From the IMG/VR virus record IMGVR_UViG_3300018910_000021, positions 1-26,973 of that record: 26,973 bases of DNA; one strand, written 5' to 3'. This DNA comes from a virus. A model generated the notes under the pieces. It was not told the origin of the DNA and made no database searches. It saw only the letters and a list, made by a program, of their open reading frames with translations. Positions 609 to 25,907 of the stretch are shown here, piece after piece; the stretch's first letter is position 1, and every line of letters starts with the position of its first letter. A program made the position numbers and the translations under genes.

Positions 609-681
609 GCCTTCGTAGCTCAGGGGATAGAGCACCGCTCTCCTAAAGCGGGTGTCGCAGGTTCGAATCCTGCCGGGGGCA
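609..681 (+). tRNA. tRNA-Arg (anticodon CCU)
   Basis: A full cloverleaf can be folded. The acceptor stem is GCCTTCG (609-615) with CGGGGGC (674-680), including two G-T pairs. The anticodon stem is CCGCT (635-639) with AGCGG (647-651) around the loop CTCCTAA, which places anticodon CCT at 642-644. The T stem is GCAGG/CCTGC with loop TTCGAAT (662-668). Base 681 (A) is the discriminator and no CCA is encoded, as is common in actinomycetes. The tRNA reads AGG codons. It is intact and lies exactly where host-like sequence gives way to phage-like sequence, so it is the probable integration target of the element; tRNA 3' ends are the standard target of tyrosine integrases of AICEs and phages. Confidence 0.95.
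657..681. other. Probable left attachment site (attL) in the 3' end of tRNA-Arg
   Basis: Inference from context. Host-like sequence ends at the tRNA and mobile-element genes begin about 550 bases later. The T arm and acceptor end is the usual identity segment for actinomycete elements. The partner repeat (attR) is not present anywhere in this window and the exact core limits cannot be set from one side. Confidence 0.45.
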
Positions 682-698
682 CATCGCTGAACAGGACG

Positions 699-4291: not shown

Positions 4292-4313
4292 GCGGGCTCC
4301 AGACATGAAGAAG

Positions 4314-15922: not shown

Positions 15923-17173
15923 TCAGCTGGCGGCGTTGCGGTAGGCGCGGTACGCGGCGGTGTCCTGCGGGGTGCCGTCCGTGCGCGCGAACGCCAGGAA
16001 GCCGACCTGGAGATAGTCGGCGTACCGCTCGGACAGGCGCAGCAGCTGCACGTCCTGCACGTCGCGGATGAGGTAGCCCGCGTAGAAGTCGCCGAACAGG
16101 ATCGACTTGGCGTTGGCGGACATCGTCGGCATGTCCTGGTTGATCGTGTAGCCGTAGCCCAGCAGGCCGTCCGGGACACCGACCTGCACCGAGGGCTCCC
16201 ACAGCGGGCGGTTCTGGCCGTCCTTCAGCTTCCGCGCGGCGGCCAGCGTGGCGTCGTTGAGCATGAACCGGGCCCGGCCGCTGTTGCGGTACGCCGGGTC
16301 CACGGAGTGGATCAGGTCGATCAGGTCGTCGTAGGTGACCGACGTGGTCTGGCCCGTGGCGCCGGTCTTGCCGACGACGGCGTTGGTCTGCACGCCCTCG
16401 GGCTGGTTGGTGCCGGTGCCGGTGGTGAAGTGGATGTTCTGCGCGCGGCCGATGCGCTGGCCCAGCTTGCCGGCCAGCCACGACTCCACGTCGAACGCGG
16501 CGTCGTTGAGCAGCTGCAGGGAGACCCGCACCAGCTTCGAGGTGTACGTGTAGGCGCCGACGTCCGCCTGCCCCAGCGTCAGATCCTGTTCGGTGACCTG
16601 GGTGTTCTCGCCGAGGATCGCGCCGACGTTGGCGGTGTCGTCGTTCGTCGGCCAGGGCAGGGTGGCGCCGGTCTCGGTGGTGATGACCTCGGCGACGTCG
16701 CGCATGGAGCTGAAGAACTTCTGAGCCTCGACCAGCTTGGCGCGGAAGGCTGGCGGGACGATGTAGCCGCCGGCCGCACCGGTGGCCACGCCCTGGGCGC
16801 GCAGCTCCTTGCCGTCGACCCAGCCGGTGCGCAGCGCGGCACGCTCCTCGCTGGTCAGCTCGGTGGCGCCTTCGCGCATCCAGGTACGCCAGGCGTCGGC
16901 GTAGGCCGCGGCCCGGTCCTCGCCGCCGTGACGCTCGGCGTCGGCTTCCTGGGTGGCCTGAATGACCTGGGAGTAGTCGACGGTCGCGAGGCGCTGGTGG
17001 CGCTCCTCGCGTTCGATGTCGGCGGACAGCCGCTCGACGTCGGCCAGGGCCTCGTCCCAGGCGGCGCGGTCCTCGGCGGACAGCTCCGCCTCGGACACGG
17101 CGCGGTTCTGGAACTTCTGCGCGGCGTCCCAGGCAGCGGCGCGCTGGTCCAGCAGATCCTTCAGGGTGGGCAT
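15923..17173 (-). CDS. Major capsid protein (HK97 fold)
   Basis: The 416-residue protein has an N-terminal charged, helical delta-like domain (about 1-105) that probably acts as scaffold and is removed by the protease encoded just upstream. The HK97 capsid core follows: GGYIVPPAFRAKLVE, FFSSMRDVAEVITTETG, LPWPTNDD, TYTSKLVRVSLQLLNDAAFDVESWLAGKLGQRIGRAQNIHFTTG, then LIDLIHSVDPAYRNSGRARFMLNDATLA and LLGYGYTINQDMP, ending with LRLSERYADYLQVGFLAFARTDG. It is the shell subunit. The ATG is preceded by GGAGG. Confidence 0.95.
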   Translation of the reverse strand: MPTLKDLLDQRAAAWDAAQKFQNRAVSEAELSAEDRAAWDEALADVERLSADIEREERHQRLATVDYSQVIQATQEADAERHGGEDRAAAYADAWRTWMREGATELTSEERAALRTGWVDGKELRAQGVATGAAGGYIVPPAFRAKLVEAQKFFSSMRDVAEVITTETGATLPWPTNDDTANVGAILGENTQVTEQDLTLGQADVGAYTYTSKLVRVSLQLLNDAAFDVESWLAGKLGQRIGRAQNIHFTTGTGTNQPEGVQTNAVVGKTGATGQTTSVTYDDLIDLIHSVDPAYRNSGRARFMLNDATLAAARKLKDGQNRPLWEPSVQVGVPDGLLGYGYTINQDMPTMSANAKSILFGDFYAGYLIRDVQDVQLLRLSERYADYLQVGFLAFARTDGTPQDTAAYRAYRNAAS

Positions 17174-17239: not shown

Positions 17240-17989
17240 CTACCGCGCCAGGCGGTAGCGGGCGGCGAGCAGGTCCATCTGCCTCGCCTGACGGCTCCCA
17301 GTGGTCTCTCCCGGCTGGGGTGCGTCGCTGCCCCGAGTGGCCGCCGTGGCGGTCGGCTCGTGGCGGAAGTCGAGAAGCTCGGGCCGGTAGGCGGCCCGGC
17401 GGTCGAAGGCGGCTTGGTCGCCGCGGACGGTGAGCGCCGTGGCGACGGAGCGCAGCGCGGCGTCGGTGCCTTCGTAGGCGGGGAACGTCACGGCCGAGAC
17501 TTCGAACAGCTGCACCTCGCGGATGATGCGCAGCTCGGCCTCCATGTCGCCCTCGGACGTCTGGACCGTGACGGACTGCCAGTCGTCCTTCACCGTGCGG
17601 AATCCGAAGCTCATGCCGGTGACGTTCTTGTTCTCCAGGTTCACGACGAGGTCACCGACGTAGGACAGGCGGGTGTCGAGGTCGGCGTCGACGGCCAGGC
17701 CGACGGCGTCCTGCGACAGGCGCAGACTGCCGGCCGACACCCGGGAGACGACCAGGCGGGTGTCGTGGTCGACGAGGAACCGAGCGTCCCCCTCACTGAG
17801 CGTCTTGGTGAACGCGCCCGGCGCGATCTCCTCATAGAAACCCCAGGTCAGCGGGTTGCCGATGGCGGTCCGCTGGTTGAAGACGGCAGCGTGCCCGGTG
17901 AACCCGCGGGTGCCCTGGTCGTCGTCGGTGGCGCGCAAGCTCACGCCGGCCGTGGCCAGGGCGAGGTCCCGCCTCTCTTCGGTCCTCAT
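17240..17989 (-). CDS. Prohead protease (HK97 family, U35/S78-like)
   Basis: The 249-residue protein starts at an ATG that overlaps the portal stop (ATGA). Family signatures are GHAAVFNQRT, FYEEIAPGAFTKTL, FLVDHD (catalytic His about residue 75), VTGMSFGF (catalytic Ser about 127) and LFEVSAVTFPAYEGT (acidic partner about E163). These are the expected triad elements of the HK97 maturation protease. It cleaves the N-terminal region of the capsid protein inside the prohead. Order portal-protease-capsid is the classic HK97 order. Confidence 0.93.
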   Translation of the reverse strand: MRTEERRDLALATAGVSLRATDDDQGTRGFTGHAAVFNQRTAIGNPLTWGFYEEIAPGAFTKTLSEGDARFLVDHDTRLVVSRVSAGSLRLSQDAVGLAVDADLDTRLSYVGDLVVNLENKNVTGMSFGFRTVKDDWQSVTVQTSEGDMEAELRIIREVQLFEVSAVTFPAYEGTDAALRSVATALTVRGDQAAFDRRAAYRPELLDFRHEPTATAATRGSDAPQPGETTGSRQARQMDLLAARYRLAR

Positions 17990-19218
17990 TGCTGCCCTCC
18001 AGTGTCCGGGCTGTCGTCGAGCGGGTCGGACCCCAGCGGGGCCATGTACGTCGGCTGCAGGTAGGTGTCGCCCTCGGGCCCAGCGATGGGCGGCAGGTCC
18101 TCGAGAGCGCGGATGTCGTTGGCGCTGAACGCACCGATGTCCCGCATGGCCCGGTAGAACGTGGCGCGCGCGGAGGAGTCGCCGCGCAGCAGGCCCTGCA
18201 GGGCGTACTTGGCGGACTCGCCGGGGGGCAGCAGCTCCTTGGTGATGCGCTGCTCGGCGGGCTGGAGCCACTGCGGGCCGAGGTCGAAGGTGACCCAGCC
18301 CTGCGCCTGCTGCTCCAGCCCGGTGCCCCAGCTGGTGCTCTTCTCGGTGGCCATCAGCAGGAACGGCGGAACGCCGAACATGCGGGCGATCTCGGTGACC
18401 TGGAACTGCCGGGACTCCAGGAACTGCGCGTCGACGTAGGGCATCACGATCGGCTTGAACGAGGCGCCGGAGTCGAGCACCGCCGTGCGCTGGGCGTTGG
18501 CCAGGCCCGAGGCGGCGGCGTCCCAGCGTGAGCGCAGCGCCTCCGCCTGCTCCTGGTTCAGCCGCTGCTCGGTCTGGAGTACGCCGCCGAGCAGGTTGCC
18601 CCGGCCGAACAGGGCGCCCGCCGACCTCTCCGCGGCCTGTGCCAGGCCGATCCCGCCAGCCGCCGCGCGCACAGGGGAGACGCCGGTCAGACCGTCGTAG
18701 CCGAGGCCGGGCAGGTGCAGGATGTCCCGGCTCGTCATGACGCGCTGGGCGCCCCAGTCGTCGGTGACCTCGAACAGCTTCCCGGAGGGAAGGTCCGGGG
18801 TGGGCCGGACCCGGCCGACCTTCACCCTGCCCGGGGTGATGGGCCACAGCTGCACGATCTCGCCACCGCCGTTGCGGACCTTCTGCACGTAGCCGTTGCC
18901 CCACAGCACCCGGGCCACGCCGACCACACGCCACAGCTCCAGCGGCGTCAGCTCGGGATGCGGGTCCTTCAACAGCGCGTTGGTGGTCCGGTCGCGGGTG
19001 CCGTCCGTGTAGGTGTGCAGCGGGAGCGCCGCGGACACCCCGGCGATCAGGGCCACCGACCGCCACACGGACGGCATGTGCAGCGAGGTCGTCTCGGTGA
19101 CGTGCACGCCGGACTCGGTGGAGGTGCCGCCGAGGACGTCGAGCAGGGAAGTGCTGGTCAGCGGCACGGCCGGGTTCTCGACACTGGCCCGCTTCTCGAA
19201 CAGCCCGAACAGGCTCAC
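17986..19218 (-). CDS. Portal protein (HK97 family)
   Basis: The 410-residue protein starts MSLFGLFEKR and shows typical HK97 portal elements: VWRSVALIAGVSAALPLHTY, a LWGNGYVQKVRNGGGEIVQLWPI block, ITPGRVKV, DILHLPGLGYDGLTGVSP, a long stem helix region, and FESR-like QFLESRQFQVTEIARMFGVPPFLL. The C-terminal residues include ALEDLPPI and a disordered acidic tail. Twelve copies should form the DNA entry ring. Start and stop both overlap neighbours (ATGA), so it is coupled to the small membrane protein before it and the protease after it. Confidence 0.95.
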   Translation of the reverse strand: MSLFGLFEKRASVENPAVPLTSTSLLDVLGGTSTESGVHVTETTSLHMPSVWRSVALIAGVSAALPLHTYTDGTRDRTTNALLKDPHPELTPLELWRVVGVARVLWGNGYVQKVRNGGGEIVQLWPITPGRVKVGRVRPTPDLPSGKLFEVTDDWGAQRVMTSRDILHLPGLGYDGLTGVSPVRAAAGGIGLAQAAERSAGALFGRGNLLGGVLQTEQRLNQEQAEALRSRWDAAASGLANAQRTAVLDSGASFKPIVMPYVDAQFLESRQFQVTEIARMFGVPPFLLMATEKSTSWGTGLEQQAQGWVTFDLGPQWLQPAEQRITKELLPPGESAKYALQGLLRGDSSARATFYRAMRDIGAFSANDIRALEDLPPIAGPEGDTYLQPTYMAPLGSDPLDDSPDTGGQQ

Positions 19219-19376
19219 CGCTTCACCTCCCTACGCCGGCCGGCCTGCAGCCGTTCCAGGACGACGACGCCGAGGACACCCCCGACGATCAGGGCGGCCG
19301 GGACCGACCACAGCGCGACACCGGCCACGATGGCGACTACGCAGAACAGTTCGAGGACGAGCAGCAGCAGGGTCAC
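19215..19376 (-). CDS. Tiny membrane protein between terminase and portal
   Basis: The 53-residue protein starts at a GTG overlapping the terminase stop (GTGA) and ends by overlapping the portal ATG (ATGA). It has two adjacent hydrophobic segments (LLLLVLELFCVVAIVAGVALW and PAALIVGGVLGVVVLERL) and a very basic tail (AGRRREVKR). No ribosome-binding site of its own is needed because of the overlap. Membrane proteins at this place are unusual; it could be a membrane anchor for packaging or simply a linker gene. Function unknown. Confidence 0.7.
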   Translation of the reverse strand: MTLLLLVLELFCVVAIVAGVALWSVPAALIVGGVLGVVVLERLQAGRRREVKR

Positions 19377-20881
19377 AGCCACAGGTTCGGCGCCCCTTCT
19401 TCCTCGACGTCGGCGCTCAGGCCCCACCGGGCGAGCGTGGCGGCCACCAGCGGGCTGATGTCCACCGAGACGATCCGGCGGGCCCACGCCCACGCGTCGC
19501 CCAGCAGTCGCTTCTGCGCGCCCGCCAGGGCCGACGCCAGCGGCGCGTCGTCGAAGTGCGTCAGCGTCTGCGTGGTCACGGCGTCGTAGAACTGGCCGCA
19601 CGCCGCCGCCATCTCCCGCGCCTTCGGCTTGACGATCTCGACGTCGAGGCCGGTCTCCTCGTCCTCCAGCTCGGGGATGAGGGACGCCGCCGGACTGGCC
19701 GGGTCGATGACCCAGCACCGCGGGGAGTACTTCGCGTGCAGCTCCTTCGCGCGCTCCACGATCCAGCCGGTGCCGGGCCGGTGGTCGACGACCGTGACGT
19801 GCACGCCGCCCAGGTACGGGAACGCCGCGCTGATCGCCGCGTGCGACCGCTCCGGGGTCATGTCGATGGACAGCGCCACGGGCCCCGCCTGCCGGGCCTC
19901 AGCGACCGCCCCGACGTCGCCGACCGCCAGGGCCCGCCACGCCTCCTCGCCGATGACCTGCCAGGTGTCGGCCTCGTCGGACGGGTAGTCGCCCACGCCC
20001 AGCCGCTCACGCTCGAAGATGCCGGACGAGCCGAGGGAGGCCCGCTCGTTGCGGACGAACTCCGGGGTGATCAGGTAGCCCAGCGACGGGTTCGCCTTCG
20101 CCCAGGCGGCGGGGTCGGCGGAGCTGTCGTGGTCGGTGCAGCCCGGCGGGCACTCGTCGAGGTGCGGGTCGACCGACCACTCGAAGTACGCCAGCGACGG
20201 GTCCGGCTCGCCGGCCTCCAGCGCCGCCAGGGCCCGGCGCCGCAGGCGGCCCAGCTGAACCGACGGAGCACCGATCCCGGCGCTGCCGAAGTACCACAGC
20301 TGCGGGTTCTCGACGGCGGACATCGTCGGCATCAGCGCGCCCATCGCGTCGTCGCCGAGGATCATCGCCTCGTCGAGGATGTTGCAGTCGCCGGTCCAGC
20401 CTCGGCCGGACCCGCCGGACCGGGCGATGAACTGCAGGGACTGCCCGGTGACCAGCGTGATCGAGGTCTCGGTCGTGTTGTTCAGCATCCGCTTGACGCG
20501 TTTCCGCAGGTCAGGGCACCCAAGGATCAGGGACTGGATTCGCTGGAACGCGACCCGCGCGGTCTTGAACTCGTGCGCGGAGTGGATGATCAGCCGCTCG
20601 CCGAGCAGGAACAGCCCGGCCAGCTCGCGGGCCTCGATGATGCCGCCCTTGCCGTTCTGGCGAGGGACGTTGACGCAGCACTCGAATGCCGCCCACTGGC
20701 CGTCGGCCCGCTCGCGCAGGCCGACGTCGAGGACGTGCTGCTGCCAGGGCATCAGGTCCAGTCCGGCGAGCGCCGCCAGCTCGACGGCTTCCTGCCCGGC
20801 CGACGACAGGAACGTCGGCGGCGCGGTGAACAGCCGCGGCGTCTGAGCGCCCCGCAGGTCAGGCTCGGCGAGCACGGACAC
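19373..20881 (-). CDS. Terminase large subunit
   Basis: The 502-residue protein is the ATP-driven packaging motor and headful/cos nuclease. The ATPase domain has the Walker A-like PRQNGKG (residues 73-79), preceded by MPWQQHVLDVGLRE, and Walker B NILDEAM (167-173). The RNase H-like nuclease domain has LSIDMT (D340) and VIDPASPAAS (D393), with further acidic residues (HFDD) near the C-terminus. I chose the GTG at 20881, preceded by GGGAGGA; longer in-frame starts give a composition unlike a protein and would overlap the small upstream gene fully. The gene overlaps that upstream gene by 23 bases. Confidence 0.94.
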   Translation of the reverse strand: MSVLAEPDLRGAQTPRLFTAPPTFLSSAGQEAVELAALAGLDLMPWQQHVLDVGLRERADGQWAAFECCVNVPRQNGKGGIIEARELAGLFLLGERLIIHSAHEFKTARVAFQRIQSLILGCPDLRKRVKRMLNNTTETSITLVTGQSLQFIARSGGSGRGWTGDCNILDEAMILGDDAMGALMPTMSAVENPQLWYFGSAGIGAPSVQLGRLRRRALAALEAGEPDPSLAYFEWSVDPHLDECPPGCTDHDSSADPAAWAKANPSLGYLITPEFVRNERASLGSSGIFERERLGVGDYPSDEADTWQVIGEEAWRALAVGDVGAVAEARQAGPVALSIDMTPERSHAAISAAFPYLGGVHVTVVDHRPGTGWIVERAKELHAKYSPRCWVIDPASPAASLIPELEDEETGLDVEIVKPKAREMAAACGQFYDAVTTQTLTHFDDAPLASALAGAQKRLLGDAWAWARRIVSVDISPLVAATLARWGLSADVEEEGAPNLWL

Positions 20882-21372: not shown

Positions 21373-21810
21373 CTACCACTCCAGCGTGGCGCCGGCGGTG
21401 ACGTCGCGTTGCCGTGCGCGCCGGGCGTTGTACCAGCGGGTGGCGACGCGGTCCATCTCGGGGTCACGCATGGCCTCGATGCGTTGCCGGACGATCGTCT
21501 CGCCGGGGTCGACGACTACTATGCGTGCGCCGAGGCGCCTGTACCGCGCGCGGGCCTTGGCGTCGGGCATCGTGTGGATCAGGTAGACGTCCAGCTTGTC
21601 CAGGTGTCGGCAAGCCTCGTCGATGGCTGCATAGCGTGCGCGGTGGGCGACCTTGAGGTGCAGCGGGTGCTGGCTCCACTGTGGTGCGCCTGGTCCGGTG
21701 AGCGCCGAGGTGATGCGGTCAAGGTCGATGACGATGTCGGTGGCCTTGGCGTGGGCGTCGATCCAGGACGACTTGCCCGCGGCCGGCGGTCCGGTGACGA
21801 CGATCAGCAC
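21373..21810 (-). CDS. P-loop kinase / AAA-type ATPase
   Basis: The 145-residue protein starts at a GTG and has Walker A VVTGPPAAGKSSW at residues ~4-16, then DIVIDLDRITSAL (probable magnesium-binding aspartates), a LID-like YRRLGARIVVVDPGETIVRQRI segment and a final RWYNARRARQRDV tail. It resembles small polynucleotide kinase or nucleotide kinase domains found in phages. It lies directly after the HNH gene. A role in repairing or modifying DNA ends, or nucleotide metabolism, is plausible. The exact substrate cannot be read from sequence. Confidence 0.8.
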   Translation of the reverse strand: MLIVVTGPPAAGKSSWIDAHAKATDIVIDLDRITSALTGPGAPQWSQHPLHLKVAHRARYAAIDEACRHLDKLDVYLIHTMPDAKARARYRRLGARIVVVDPGETIVRQRIEAMRDPEMDRVATRWYNARRARQRDVTAGATLEW

Positions 21811-21816
21811 GGACCG

Positions 21817-22095
21817 TCACCACCGAAGGGCCGGGCGCTGGGGCTGGCGGGGTGCCGTGGCCCGGTTGCCGCGGGCGCTGTTGCAGCGGCGGTGCGCGGG
21901 CCGGGCGTTGGCCCGGTCGAGGAGATCGCCGCCGCGGGACAGCGGCACCTGGTGGTCGAGGGTGAAGGACAGCGGATGGCGGGCGTCGAGGTCGTAGCCG
22001 ATCTCGTGGCCGCACAGCCAGCACGGCAGGCGCTGGGCGCGCAGCCAGGCGACGAGGCGGCGGTAGGGGCGCCCGTTGCGGGGGTTGCCGGCCAC
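21817..22095 (-). CDS. HNH endonuclease
   Basis: The 92-residue protein is a compact HNH nuclease: zinc-binding CWLC (C25, C28), catalytic LDHQVPLSRGG (D47, H48), NARPAHRRCNSARGN (N63, H68, C71, N72). I chose the GTG at 22095, preceded by GGGAGG; a GTG two codons earlier would overlap that site. It is followed after 6 bases by the kinase gene. HNH enzymes beside terminase genes often assist cos cleavage and packaging (as HK97 gp74), but here a terminator separates it from the terminase operon, so it could also act earlier or be a free-standing nuclease. Confidence 0.85.
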   Translation of the reverse strand: MAGNPRNGRPYRRLVAWLRAQRLPCWLCGHEIGYDLDARHPLSFTLDHQVPLSRGGDLLDRANARPAHRRCNSARGNRATAPRQPQRPALRW

Positions 22096-22115: not shown

Positions 22116-22370
22116 TTACTGCGCGCCCTCGTCGAGCAGCCAGTCGGTGACTTCCTTGGCTTCCTTGTCGTGCGTCAGGACCCAGTGCATGAGGATCAGG
22201 TCGTAGTCCTCTTGGCTCAGGCTCTCGCAGGCCTCGGGCCGGTTCGTCTTGGTTGAGTCCTCGGTGATGGCTGCCTGGCAGTCGGCTTGCTGCTCGGCCT
22301 CGGACTTTCCGCAGGCGGTGGCGGCTGCCAGGAGTACGGCGGCGGTGGCGATGGCTCTGCGTGCTCTCAT
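22116..22370 (-). CDS. Small secreted lipoprotein
   Basis: The 84-residue protein has a basic N-terminus (MRARRAI), a hydrophobic core (ATAAVLLAAATA) and a cysteine at about residue 20 within AATACGKSE, which fits a lipoprotein signal with a relaxed lipobox. The mature part is about 65 residues, acidic, with two further cysteines (DCQAA, EACES) that could form a disulfide, and an SLSQEDYDLILMHWVLTHDKEAKEVTDWLLDEGAQ end. The GGGGGGA site precedes the ATG. Secreted lipoproteins on prophages often serve superinfection exclusion or lysogenic conversion; AICE entry exclusion is another possibility. No known family. Confidence 0.78.
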   Translation of the reverse strand: MRARRAIATAAVLLAAATACGKSEAEQQADCQAAITEDSTKTNRPEACESLSQEDYDLILMHWVLTHDKEAKEVTDWLLDEGAQ

Positions 22371-22388
22371 GGTCCCCCCAGGGAGTGC

Positions 22389-22406
22389 TGATGCTGGGGA
22401 GCATCA
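22389..22406. repeat. Hairpin in the leader of the lipoprotein gene
   Basis: TGATGCT (22389-22395) and AGCATCA (22400-22406) form a perfect 7-base stem around GGGG. It lies a few bases upstream of the ribosome-binding site, so it could affect translation or be an operator. Confidence 0.35.
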
Positions 22407-22451
22407 TCTCCGTGGGGCGGGCGGCGGGCGGGTGGTGTGGCCAGGTTGTGA

Positions 22452-22498
22452 CACGACGAAGCCCCCGGCTGGTGAAGGAGCGCGGGGGCTTCGTCGTG
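22452..22498. terminator. Long perfect hairpin terminator after the HTH gene
   Basis: A 16-base perfect stem, CACGACGAAGCCCCCG (22452-22467) and CGGGGGCTTCGTCGTG (22483-22498), with a 15-base loop, lies between the small HTH gene and the lipoprotein gene. It separates the transfer block from the lipoprotein/HNH/kinase block. Confidence 0.7.
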
Positions 22499-22563
22499 CG
22501 ACTGTGGTGCCGTGTGCGGGCACAGTTGTACACCGAGATCGTTGCACTCCGTCTGACCTGCGG

Positions 22564-22764
22564 TCAAGCGGCGCTGCGTTCGGCGCGCTTGGCGGCGAGG
22601 GCGGCGACGTCTTGGGCGGCGTACCAGGGCTGGCGGGGTGTGCCGCCGGAGCGCTTCAGCTGGCCGCGGTGGACGATGCTGCGGAGGCCGCCGAGGGTGA
22701 CGCCGAGCAGGCGCGCGGTCTGGTGGGCGGTGAGGTGGCCGGGCCGGATGATCTGCGACTCCAT
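22564..22764 (-). CDS. Small HTH protein, excisionase-like
   Basis: The 66-residue protein is a MerR/excisionase-type helix-turn-helix: LTAHQTARLLGVTLGGLRSIVHRGQLKR followed by a wing/beta hairpin and WYAAQDVAALAAKRAER. The ATG at 22764 has GGAGG directly upstream, though close; an in-frame ATG at 22773 lacks such a site. In AICEs an excisionase lies between replication gene and integrase. Here it follows the transfer ATPase directly and no integrase follows it, so it may be an excisionase, a transcription regulator or an early-late switch. Confidence 0.75.
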   Translation of the reverse strand: MESQIIRPGHLTAHQTARLLGVTLGGLRSIVHRGQLKRSGGTPRQPWYAAQDVAALAAKRAERSAA

Positions 22765-22810
22765 GCCCTCCATGATGCCCGGGGAGGGAGACCGGGCGGG
22801 GGAAGCGAAG

Positions 22811-22835
22811 GGCCCGGATCCGGGGGATCCGGGCC
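22811..22835. terminator. Hairpin between the transfer ATPase gene and the HTH gene
   Basis: GGCCCGGATCC (22811-22821) pairs perfectly with GGATCCGGGCC (22825-22835) around a 3-base loop. There is no T-run. Probable terminator or attenuator of the TraB-like gene transcript. Confidence 0.55.
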
Positions 22836-22854
22836 TCTCCTCGGGTGCCTCCCT

Positions 22855-22899
22855 CGCCTCCCTCACCGGGCGTATGTGCAGGTCATGTTGAGGGAGGCG
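22855..22899. repeat. Inverted repeat after the TraB-like gene
   Basis: CGCCTCCCTCA (22855-22865) and TGAGGGAGGCG (22889-22899) are 11-base perfect inverted repeats with a 23-base loop. A role in mRNA stability or as a DNA-binding site (for example a clt-like transfer sequence) is possible but not shown. Confidence 0.4.
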
Positions 22900-22933
22900 G
22901 TGCGGGGAGGGGTTCGGGGAGAACTCCCCAAGA

Positions 22934-25063
22934 TCAGTCGTCTCCCTCGTCGTCGGTGGCGTCCTCCAGGCGCGCCAGGATGGCCTCCTGGACGCGGTCG
23001 CGGGAGACGACCATGCGGCCGGCGGACTTGTACTGCTCGGCCCCGTGTGGCTCCAGCGCCCGCTTCAGGTCGGTCGGCGACCACTCCCGGTACTCGGTCG
23101 GGTTGCGCTCGGCGAGCCGGTGGAGGACCTCCTGGACGAGCATCCGCGGTTCGTCGCCGAGGACGGCGGCGACGTCGGCGAGCGGGTCGGCGGCCAGGCC
23201 CTCCAGGATGGCGACCACCGCCTCTCCGTCGCGCAGGGCCATCGCGCGCTCGACGACCGGGGTGACCTCGTCGACGCCCCTCTCCGGGTCGCGGGCGACG
23301 TAGTGGGAGCGGATCACCTCGAACGGCTTGTTGGTGAAGCCGACCGTGACCGCGGTGCCGATGTCCTCGCCGGGGATGAGCGTGGTGGCGGTGACGCCGG
23401 CCTTGTGCTTTCCGGAGCCGAGCAGGCCGTCGTTGGCGACGTGGTCGCCGACGGCGAAGGCGACGCGGTGGGACGTGTTGCGGGTGACGTCGCGCGGGAT
23501 GCTGTCGGCGGTCGGGGAGACGGTGACCCAGATGAGGGTGATGCCGACCTTGCGGGCCTTCTTCATCACCTTCACGGCCAGCTCGGCGGCTTCCTTGCCG
23601 TGGTCCTTGTGCATGAACAGCTCGTGGCACTCGTCGAAGACGACGACCTTGGGCCGCATCCGCGGGTCCCGGGTGGCGAGGTCGCGGGTGAGCTTCACCG
23701 TGTCGCCGCCGAGTTCCTCCAGGAGCTTGCCGCGCTCGGTGACCTCGTCGCGCAGGCGGCGCAGGGCGCGCACGGCCTCTTCGATCTGCTCGTCCTCGTC
23801 GCCCTTGACCAGGGCCCGCAGGCGGGGCTTGAGCGGGTCGTAGTCGACGTTGTAGGCCATGACGTAGGCCTCAACGTCGACCAGCGGGTCGAGGATCGCG
23901 CCGAGCAGCAGCGCGATGACCAGGCTCGACTTGCCGGAGCCCATGATGCCGCCGACCATCCAGTTCGCGGCCATGAGCTTGCCGATGATGGGTTCGCCGC
24001 GCTGGGAGACGGCGACGGGCACGCCCTTGAAGTAGTCGGTGGTGCCCTCGGTGAGGAGGGGCCAGGGCGGGACGGGACCGGACAGGGAGCCCTGGTCGGC
24101 GACCCACAGGTCGAGGGTGCCGGGGATCTTCGGGGGCTCGGTCGGCCACACCTCGACCGGCTTGCGCAGCAGGTTGTGCGCGAGAACGTTCTTGCGGGCG
24201 GCGATCATCTCGACGGTGACGCCCATGGGGAGCTGCAGCTGGGTGTGCCAGCCGTTCCCGGACCGGGTCGTCGGGGACACCCAGCGCGGCTGCCAGCCGT
24301 CCTTGATGGCGCGGTTCAGCGGGGCGATGCCGAGGTTGCCCAGGGCCCGCAGGATGGCGCCCTCGTCGGGGACGACGTCGCGGTCCTCGGCGTCCGCGGG
24401 CAGGGCCCAGGCGGGAGCGGCGTGCTGGCGGCGGCCGACCGCCCACGCCCCGGCGAGCGCGAGCCACGGCAGGGAGTACAGCAGCGGCTCCCACACCACG
24501 CCGGCGATGAACGCGACCCAGGCGACCAGTTCGATGGTGGCGGCGAGCGGGGTGAGGACGTCGGCCACGTCGTGGGTCGCGCAGGCCAGCATGACGCCCA
24601 GGAGCAGCAGCACGCCGGTGCCGGCGCCGACCCCGGTGGCCAGGGTCTTGGGGGCATTCATCACCATCTGCAGTAGTTCGACGCGGCGGCGGTGGCGGGC
24701 GAAGCGGTAGGCGTAGGCGCGCTGTTCCCACTGGCGCACCAGCTCCTCGTTCCCGGCGGCCTCGGCGGCGCGCATCATGCGTTCGTGGCGGGCGGTGGTG
24801 CGGGAGTCCCAGGCGCGGCGGGCGAGGATGCGGGCGCCGCCGAGGGTGTAGGCGCTGTGGCGGACCAGGGCGCGGTAGCCGTCGTCGGTGCGGATCTGGA
24901 CGACGATGCGGCGCAGGTGGTCGATGCGGACCCGGCGCCGCGGCTGCTCGGCGGCGGGCTCGACGGGCGCCGGTGGTGCGGGCGGCTGCTCGGGGGCGAA
25001 CTTCAGCAGGGAGACCTGCGGGCTCTTGTGCCCGTTGACCCGCTCGGGCGCTGTCTCGGTCAT
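22934..25063 (-). CDS. TraB/FtsK-SpoIIIE-type membrane DNA translocase
   Basis: The 709-residue protein has a charged, proline-rich N-terminus, membrane helices at about residues 143-161, 174-191 and 194-211, then a RecA-like motor. Walker A is GGIMGSGKSS (371-380) and Walker B VVVFDECHE (474-482), with an arginine-containing segment RDVTRNTSHRVAFAV. The C-terminal ~100 residues look like a winged-helix (EYREWSPTDLKRAL, EQYKSAGRMVVSRDRVQEAILARL). This is the layout of TraB/TraSA proteins, which move double-stranded plasmid or AICE DNA between Streptomyces hyphae, and of FtsK. It lies after SpdD-like and other small transfer genes. A phage packaging function is unlikely because a terminase is present. 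Confidence 0.9.
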   Translation of the reverse strand: MTETAPERVNGHKSPQVSLLKFAPEQPPAPPAPVEPAAEQPRRRVRIDHLRRIVVQIRTDDGYRALVRHSAYTLGGARILARRAWDSRTTARHERMMRAAEAAGNEELVRQWEQRAYAYRFARHRRRVELLQMVMNAPKTLATGVGAGTGVLLLLGVMLACATHDVADVLTPLAATIELVAWVAFIAGVVWEPLLYSLPWLALAGAWAVGRRQHAAPAWALPADAEDRDVVPDEGAILRALGNLGIAPLNRAIKDGWQPRWVSPTTRSGNGWHTQLQLPMGVTVEMIAARKNVLAHNLLRKPVEVWPTEPPKIPGTLDLWVADQGSLSGPVPPWPLLTEGTTDYFKGVPVAVSQRGEPIIGKLMAANWMVGGIMGSGKSSLVIALLLGAILDPLVDVEAYVMAYNVDYDPLKPRLRALVKGDEDEQIEEAVRALRRLRDEVTERGKLLEELGGDTVKLTRDLATRDPRMRPKVVVFDECHELFMHKDHGKEAAELAVKVMKKARKVGITLIWVTVSPTADSIPRDVTRNTSHRVAFAVGDHVANDGLLGSGKHKAGVTATTLIPGEDIGTAVTVGFTNKPFEVIRSHYVARDPERGVDEVTPVVERAMALRDGEAVVAILEGLAADPLADVAAVLGDEPRMLVQEVLHRLAERNPTEYREWSPTDLKRALEPHGAEQYKSAGRMVVSRDRVQEAILARLEDATDDEGDD

Positions 25064-25604: not shown

Positions 25605-25907
25605 TCAGCGGCCCTTGCGGACTTCGCGCCACATGCCGCGCAGGACGATCAGGCAGGCGGTGGCGCACACGGCGCCGATCGCGATGGCCACGGCGAACAG
25701 GGCGCCGACCAGGCCGACCGACACGGCCACCCCGCCGATCACCAGCCACTTCTTCGCGTCGAACTCCTGCCGGGGCGCGGGGGCCGCCGCGGGCTGCTGC
25801 TGGTTGAGCAGCTGCTGGGCGGCGAGGATCGCGGCGATCTGCCGGGTCAACTCCGCGTTGTCGGCGGCCTCCACGGCGTCGCGGGCGGCCTTCTCCAGGG
25901 CGCTCAT
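25605..25907 (-). CDS. SpdD/SpdB-like membrane protein
   Basis: The 100-residue protein starts at the ATG at 25907, which overlaps the stop of the upstream gene (ATGA) and has GGGGA before it. An upstream in-frame start would lack a site. Residues ~1-35 form an alanine-rich helix, a short glutamine/proline/alanine linker follows, and residues ~55-90 form one or two membrane segments (KKWLVIGGVAVSVGLVGALFAVAIAIGAVCATACLIVL), ending in a basic tail. This glycine/valine/alanine membrane hairpin is the hallmark of SpdD/SpdB spread proteins that help distribute transferred DNA in the recipient mycelium. Moderate certainty. Confidence 0.72.
   Translation of the reverse strand: MSALEKAARDAVEAADNAELTRQIAAILAAQQLLNQQQPAAAPAPRQEFDAKKWLVIGGVAVSVGLVGALFAVAIAIGAVCATACLIVLRGMWREVRKGR

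Follow-up and report, generated by a model that had tools for sequence, protein, structure and literature searches.

A traB-like gene and a clt-like repeat array at a recurrent module boundary in a temperate Streptomyces siphophage

Genes for DNA translocases of the TraB type belong to the transfer modules of AICEs, and the position of such a gene directly ahead of phage genes raises the question of whether two different elements have been joined at this place. The gene is found in a linear IMG/VR fragment of 26,973 bp, the whole of which was analyzed (the window). AICEs are defined by an integrase, a replication protein (RepSA, RepAM (DUF3631) or Prim-Pol) and a Tra protein of the FtsK/SpoIIIE family (Ghinet 2011, PMC3218068); the last of these is present in the window, where the traB product matches PF01580. 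The initial annotation regarded the small gene behind traB as excisionase-like, and proposed that phage genes occupy the place of rep and int, with a recombination seam at 22.4–22.9 kb. The features that bear on this proposal are listed in table 1.

Table 1. Features of the window and the evidence for each.
Feature	Position	Strand	Evidence or remark
Host tRNA-Arg (CCT)	609..682	+	ARAGORN; probable attachment site, on the structural-gene side of the prophage
HK97-type major capsid protein	15923..17173	-	PF05065, E 1.3e-70
Portal protein	17986..19218	-	PF04860, E 3.4e-83
Terminase large subunit	19373..20881	-	phrog_9, E 2.8e-84; start uncertain
P-loop kinase-like protein	21373..21810	-	AAA_33; phrog_4581
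HNH endonuclease	21817..22095	-	phrog_338, E 3.9e-24 (open frame)
Lipoprotein-like gene, 84 aa	22116..22370	-	Variable slot, moron-like
Strong terminator-like hairpin	22452..22498	-	Conserved-block edge in phage relatives
Small MerR/HTH regulator gene, 69 aa	22564..22773	-	phrog_2474, E 2.7e-13
clt-like repeat array, directly 3' of traB stop codon	22779..22931	-	nhmmer, E 1.6e-30
Terminator-like hairpin behind traB	22806..22836 (approximate)	-	Fold z -4.0
Two direct 8-bp repeats AGGGAGGC	22847..22863	-	
Array core TGACCTGCACATA	22873..22885	-	Related core in relatives and behind pSVH1 traB
Inverted copy of 8-bp repeat	22891..22898	+	
traB-like FtsK/SpoIIIE DNA translocase, 709 aa	22934..25063	-	PF01580, E 1.4e-7; phrog_1358
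Small membrane-protein-like gene, upstream of traB	25605..25907	-	Often retained with the cassette; cluster 1 = 28/65 records clustered

Read from right to left on the minus strand, the window contains a short early segment followed by genes for the TraB-like protein, the HTH protein, a lipoprotein-like protein, an HNH endonuclease, a P-loop kinase, the terminase large subunit (terL), portal, protease, HK97-type capsid, tail tube, tape measure and minor tail proteins. The genes for terL, portal, capsid, tail tube and tape measure lie within one operon, which identifies an HK97-type siphophage. The window thus represents part of a temperate siphophage integrated in the chromosome of its Streptomyces host, and the reading of it as an AICE that had been cut open was ruled out. 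It was not filed as an AICE because virion genes are present, the canonical AICE module maps being read as without them. DNA of a prophage in Streptomyces sp. DH24 matched window positions 4298–25928 in ten colinear pieces with 72–86% identity, plus a separate piece of 46 bp. Searches of the phages collection with the right-hand 6 kb, TraB and the HTH protein returned nothing except the kinase gene of phage ThulaThula and phage Gilgamesh. The lipoprotein-like gene occupies a variable slot, because the alignments of DH24 and two other relatives (G003 and G004) skip most or all of the gene and resume on the HNH gene. A tRNA-Asn(GTT) gene was detected at 20793–20864 (minus strand) between the kinase and terL genes, where it overlaps the longest frame for terL; an ARAGORN scan of 20 stretches from 18 phage-context records gave no tRNA.

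The first 480 or so positions belong to the host chromosome, and at least 15 of the 19 genomes searched have a chromosomal match to them with 76–86% identity. This flank and the adjoining tRNA-Arg(CCT) gene therefore identify the window as a prophage, cut off at its right end 1.9 kb upstream of traB. In one genome (G018), 3' copies of tRNA-Arg(CCT) lie about 20 and about 22 kb beyond the intact gene, and tRNA-Arg(CCT) therefore looks like an attachment site that has been used more than once.

Neither the integrase families PF00589 and PF07508 nor the Prim-Pol family PF09250 was detected within the window, as the initial annotation had stated for integrase and replication genes. This absence concerns the fragment and need not apply to the whole element. 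PF00589 was present in three of the 12 records searched, lying 13.2 kb upstream of traB in G005 and 11.7 kb upstream in G007 (below the cut-off), and occurring in G010 together with no TraB match. Serine integrases were found upstream of traB in G008 (about 10.5 kb), the DH24 prophage (about 12.7 kb) and the L049 prophage (about 10.7 kb). Since the integrase of these relatives is encoded about 10–13 kb upstream of traB, the absence of these families from the window is best explained by the end of the contig. Upstream of its traB, the DH24 prophage further contains a gene of the DUF3987 cluster and one for a Toprim protein. A replacement of the integrase by phage genes was ruled out, as the relatives carry it in the upstream part that is missing from this contig. 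What holds of that proposal is that related TraBs precede either the rep, xis and int genes of an AICE or phage genes. The annotated order (ATPase, hairpins, HTH gene, long hairpin, lipoprotein/HNH/kinase genes, packaging genes) agreed with the gene calls on the minus strand.

The small gene behind traB matched a single family, phrog_2474 (MerR-like regulator), and no Pfam family. It also occurs in relatives with serine integrases (G008, L038 and L049). Within 2.5 kb downstream of traB, the HTH model matched 18 of 23 phage-context loci (including the window and the cut-off record G001), compared to 1 of 21 non-phage loci (Fisher p 5e-7). The phage-context loci without a match were G005, which has a different 61-aa HTH gene at this position, L075, L078, L079 and L085. 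The sole non-phage match, L043, was weak (E 9.6e-6), and the DNA match of L043 has a gap within the gene. The HTH gene goes with the phage context, and its product presumably acts as a regulator. A function as an excisionase common to AICEs was rejected, the HTH_17 genes of the scanned AICEs being other proteins: that of L053 lies beside int, and that of L048, another small gene, lies behind TraB and is not matched by the HTH model of the window.

The search with the TraB alignment yielded 37 loci in genomes and 27 in viral contigs, eight of which were already known. The order TraB, HTH and further genes up to terL and portal was found in contigs from metagenomes as well as in prophages of named Streptomyces, and a phage family has TraB, HTH, (HNH/kinase), terminase as its native arrangement. 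One part of it, TraB and about 150 bp behind it, forms a cassette that is also present in AICEs and other integrated elements. Five AICEs (L048, L051, L053, L060 and L061) encode TraBs with 62–67% identity to that of the window. Behind TraB they have Prim-Pol, DUF3631 or DUF3987 genes and an integrase gene (assigned by Pfam or cluster), and most of them also have a small HTH_17 gene. L051 and L053 measure 15.0 and 15.1 kb between 43–47 bp repeats at tRNA-Pro, and L059, with a D5-type gene and an integrase gene, measures 19.0 kb between 39-bp repeats at tRNA-Ser. L053 has each of the three signatures by which Ghinet 2011 (PMC3218068) defines an AICE. A circular plasmid of 13.5 kb, the TraB of which is 35% identical, has the same AICE gene set and order. 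The Prim-Pol/RepAM AICEs thus share with the window the TraB family and the position of the array behind traB, but have rep-xis-int behind TraB where the window has its head and tail operon.

In the 17 genomes with non-phage traB genes, no phrog_9 terminase was found near those genes; four of the genomes had one on another contig or more than 1 Mb away (terminases of other families could be missed by this search). The capsid and portal matches, too, were located apart from these traB genes. In G014 and G025 (G014:C2:3304381-3312939 and G025:C5:438940-444408) the terminase gene lies 2–6 kb from another, more distant TraB (33% and 38% identical), indicating that further phage groups may carry AICE-type TraBs. 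A viral contig of 15 kb (L081:2914-15049) has genes for TraB, terminase large subunit, Prim-Pol, a small HTH protein and an integrase (the last three by cluster), a layout that resembles that of a satellite.

On a tree of 64 TraB rows (L076, the same as L046, left out; 29 rows "other"), 15 changes of the phage label were needed, 12 of them forced by well-supported branches. When the count was made with the 40 labelled rows (22 phage and 18 non-phage; contexts cut off or unsettled in the 24 unlabelled), 12 changes between phage and non-phage were needed. The row nearest to the window, L064, is 91% identical and has integrase and helicase genes, with no structural gene recognized. Comparison of the two traB genes, a phage and a non-phage copy, gave dN 0.062 and dS 0.422, indicating that traB is under purifying selection.

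The limits of the shared DNA were taken from the blastn block that holds traB in each relative, pieces split by short gaps being counted as one. In phage-context relatives (21 block ends, G001 and the window left out), 16 of the 21 blocks extended beyond the HTH start and 11 of the 21 stopped within 22440–22455 (at 22447–22452), which is the edge of the hairpin 22452–22498. Non-phage blocks stopped at 22767–22849, the zone between traB and the HTH gene, in 16 of 19 cases; among the others, L053 and L061 stopped inside traB, and L043 reached 22447 with a gap inside the HTH gene. An extra short match at about 22340–22450 was seen in a few relatives (L062, L075, L080 and G003). The fold of 22447–22503 reached -42 kcal/mol (z -9.9, 0/200 shuffles as good). 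Downstream of traB, the stem GGCCCGGATCC-CCC-GGATCCGGGCC gave a z of -4.0 (0/200 shuffles), and the inverted-repeat zone 22840–22935 a z of -3.1 (1/200 shuffles). The "long hairpin" at 22811–22899 sits inside a conserved array of inverted 8-bp repeats with a TGACCTGC core. In the S. speibonae prophage L049 (12277–13792), about 1.5 kb with extra genes lies between the array and the HTH gene, and this gap can therefore also take cargo.

These results confirm both hairpins of the initial annotation, as well as its expectation that homology blocks would end at 22452–22498 and 22811–22899. The seam that it placed at 22.4–22.9 kb exists at the level of modules, as a recurrent module boundary in the phage family; a unique recent fusion was not upheld, since colinear relatives have the same junction. 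The annotation had added that many related phages with the identical order, and an HTH gene not shared with AICE relatives, would indicate an order native to a phage family. This was the pattern observed, with the order native to many related phages and the HTH gene in 1 of 21 non-phage loci.

When 41 sequences (window included) were read side by side, inverted 8-bp repeats AGGGAGGC/GCCTCCCT were found around a core TGACCTGC..AAA, and the array started at or just behind the traB stop codon. An nhmmer model trained on the arrays of 26 relatives, with the window left out, matched directly behind traB in 46 of 65 TraB records; the match in L074 overlaps the end of traB by 46 bp and falls just beyond the distance limit used. 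No array was found away from traB in 88 stretches (1.95 Mb, partly overlapping), the remaining matches being these sites met again within larger regions, together with the array on the 13.5-kb plasmid.

A repeat array at the 3' end of tra, as expected of a clt, is therefore evident from the relatives, and is weak in the window taken alone, where 12/200 dinucleotide shuffles equalled the 7-mer recurrence. In 50 of 63 loci (G007 and L057 have no sequence downstream and were left out) at most 10/200 shuffles matched the recurrence of the locus, a mark that was missed by the window and by twelve other loci, including the truncated L063. The unit AGGGAGGC occurs four times in the window, compared to 1.7 expected (11/100 shuffles as many). 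The repeats of the window are degenerate and not significant on their own. A core pattern, written after inspection, matched 34 of 63 loci, with the window not among them. Distant TraBs have a different repeat word at the same place (CTAACCC, CTAACTC or GGGTTAA). Downstream of traB in L079 the array repeats are altered in step, with CAGTGAGG for CAGGGAGG, and this array is a natural specificity variant.

The similarity of the arrays followed the identity of the TraB C-terminus after removal of the body (partial r 0.44, 0/999 permutations, which ignore relatedness; 59 loci, with G007, L057, L063, L076 and L091 left out, and also L083, which has no repeated word). The C-terminal domain is not alone in this, as array similarity also followed the TraB body after removal of the C-terminus (partial r 0.54). 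Three pairs with body identity below 50% and C-terminal identity above 60% have repeats in common; some other far pairs with similar C-termini (L073-L069 and L073-L087) have no common repeat.

Two Streptomyces plasmids provide a comparison for this array. The TraB target of pSVH1 is GACCCGGA (PMC5133688), and as a positive control the sequence behind pSVH1 traB yielded GACCCGG six times (0/200 shuffles) and ACCCGGA five times, both parts of GACCCGGA. A TGACCTGCGCAAA core is also present behind pSVH1 traB, and the pSVH1 clt has the array layout and the TGACCTGC core in common with the window. The clt of pWTY27 takes in 16 bp of traA and the 159 bp that follow, and TraA binds its 7-bp repeats (PMC3583192). 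As in the window, the short repeats of both plasmids lie just behind tra (in pWTY27 also just inside) and cover 150–175 bp, whereas the repeat unit is AGGGAGGC in the window and GACCCGGA or TGACACC in the plasmid clt loci. By this analogy we infer that the array is a clt locus, and the phage would therefore carry the motor and the cis site of Streptomyces-type double-stranded DNA conjugation. Some Streptomyces plasmids are reported to need a tra gene plus clt for their transfer (PMC3583192), and the phage thus plausibly keeps a second way to spread.

The structural model of TraB (mean pLDDT 78.7) has helices ahead of the motor, which are likely membrane helices, followed by an FtsK-like motor and a C-terminal unit. 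Comparison with known structures gave a Z of 31.4 for the FtsK motor and 28.8 for TcpA (comparison rows covering about residues 224–616). In the predicted model, residues 627–704 have the order H-E-H-H-H-E-E-H, suggesting a unit resembling a winged helix. An NCBIfam scan of eight cassette and early proteins of relatives, TraB and the HTH protein gave no family above its cut-off, and no spd or kor match. The motor domain is shared with gp10 of Streptomyces phage Gilgamesh and with phrog_1358 proteins; Gilgamesh has 24% identity to the window TraB across 46% of the protein.

According to the simplest alternative, TraB is the phage family's own FtsK-like gene, and the locus has neither a tie to conjugation nor a seam. 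The HTH and terminase order recurs in about 20 phage-context loci and FtsK-like genes are annotated in other phages (phrog_1358; phage Gilgamesh), as this would predict. The interleaving of phage and non-phage contexts on the TraB tree already strains such a reading, however, and the occurrence of TraB relatives, followed by relatives of the array, in compact AICEs that have att repeats makes it quite unlikely. A recent recombination that fused an AICE remnant to a prophage at 22.4–22.9 kb in the lineage of the window is very improbable. DNA homology to the non-phage locus L064, with its TraB of 91% identity, does end at 22780, but the same junction in DH24, L052, L055, L067, G003, G004 and others refutes a unique event, and the association of the HTH gene with phages also argues against it.

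The array could also be a replication origin (iterons) or an operator, bound by Rep or a small regulator, its proximity to TraB being incidental. Its layout is iteron-like and Rep iterons exist in Streptomyces plasmids (PMC3583192), but it lies behind traB in phages, AICEs and other elements with replication genes of differing families. Together with the scarcity of the HTH gene in non-phage loci (1/21), and with pSVH1, in which another rep gene accompanies the same layout and a published TraB target word (PMC5133688), this makes an origin or operator somewhat unlikely. A modest probability is given to co-option of TraB for the virion cycle, where it would bring replicated DNA of the phage from one hyphal compartment to another, or to where packaging takes place, and not to new cells. 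The location of traB before the packaging operon, with motor and array kept, agrees with such a role. It does not account for the related cassette kept in AICEs, near which the searches for terminase, portal and HK97 capsid genes gave none.

The explanation preferred in the current study is that an AICE-type transfer cassette, made up of traB and a clt-like site, probably has its downstream edge in this region, inside a temperate Streptomyces siphophage, with TraB-driven transfer as the likely mechanism. The cassette comprises traB, the clt-like inverted 8-bp repeats around the TGACCTGC core directly 3' of it, and a terminator-like hairpin; behind it follow the phage-associated HTH regulator with its own terminator, the slot of variable gene content, and the operon for packaging and head proteins. 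After excision, TraB hexamers may bind the repeats through the C-terminal winged helix, and TraB would drive the phage genome, as double-stranded DNA, into adjacent compartments or hyphae in the manner of AICEs. The same genome would also be packaged into virions. The hairpins coincide with exchange boundaries and may insulate the modules. Both the binding of TraB to the array and the transfer of DNA are putative steps of this scheme.

Seven chromosomal loci (L041, L044, L045, L047, L050, L056 and L058) combine the TraB cassette with a lone tape-measure gene of 1078–1485 aa, assigned by PHROG match in L041 and L047 and by BLAST kinship in the other five. L041 and L047 also have primase-polymerase and integrase genes. 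Near these loci, the searches detected neither a phrog_9 terminase nor a PF04860 portal nor an HK97 capsid. The L047 element (S. cyaneochromogenes chromosome; L097-L100) measures 27.8 kb between 60-bp repeats at tRNA-Ser. Such elements could be satellites of phages, or else AICEs that exploit a phage tail or interfere with it.

The streptomycete plasmid-phage pZL12 is reported to combine transfer with a lytic phage cycle (cited in PMC3583192). As such it is a precedent, but pZL12 is a plasmid-phage, and the window is an integrated siphophage whose traB-clt cassette is of the AICE type. In the openly accessible literature that was searched, no description was found of prophages with a traB-clt cassette or of AICE-like elements that bear a tape-measure gene, and integrated siphophages with a traB-clt cassette that AICEs also have, and that ends at a defined boundary, seem to be new. 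Tentatively, they could form a family of doubly transmissible phages, spreading as virions and by double-stranded DNA conjugation with their own TraB and clt, with traB-clt being traded among phages, AICEs and a third class with TraB and a lone tape-measure gene, some with primase and integrase.

The array is a candidate clt for AICEs, and its clade-specific repeat words may allow the specificity of TraB to be predicted from sequence. If the cassette works, one genome could spread within a colony without lysis and between colonies as particles, and phage and conjugative element would not be separate categories in mycelial bacteria.
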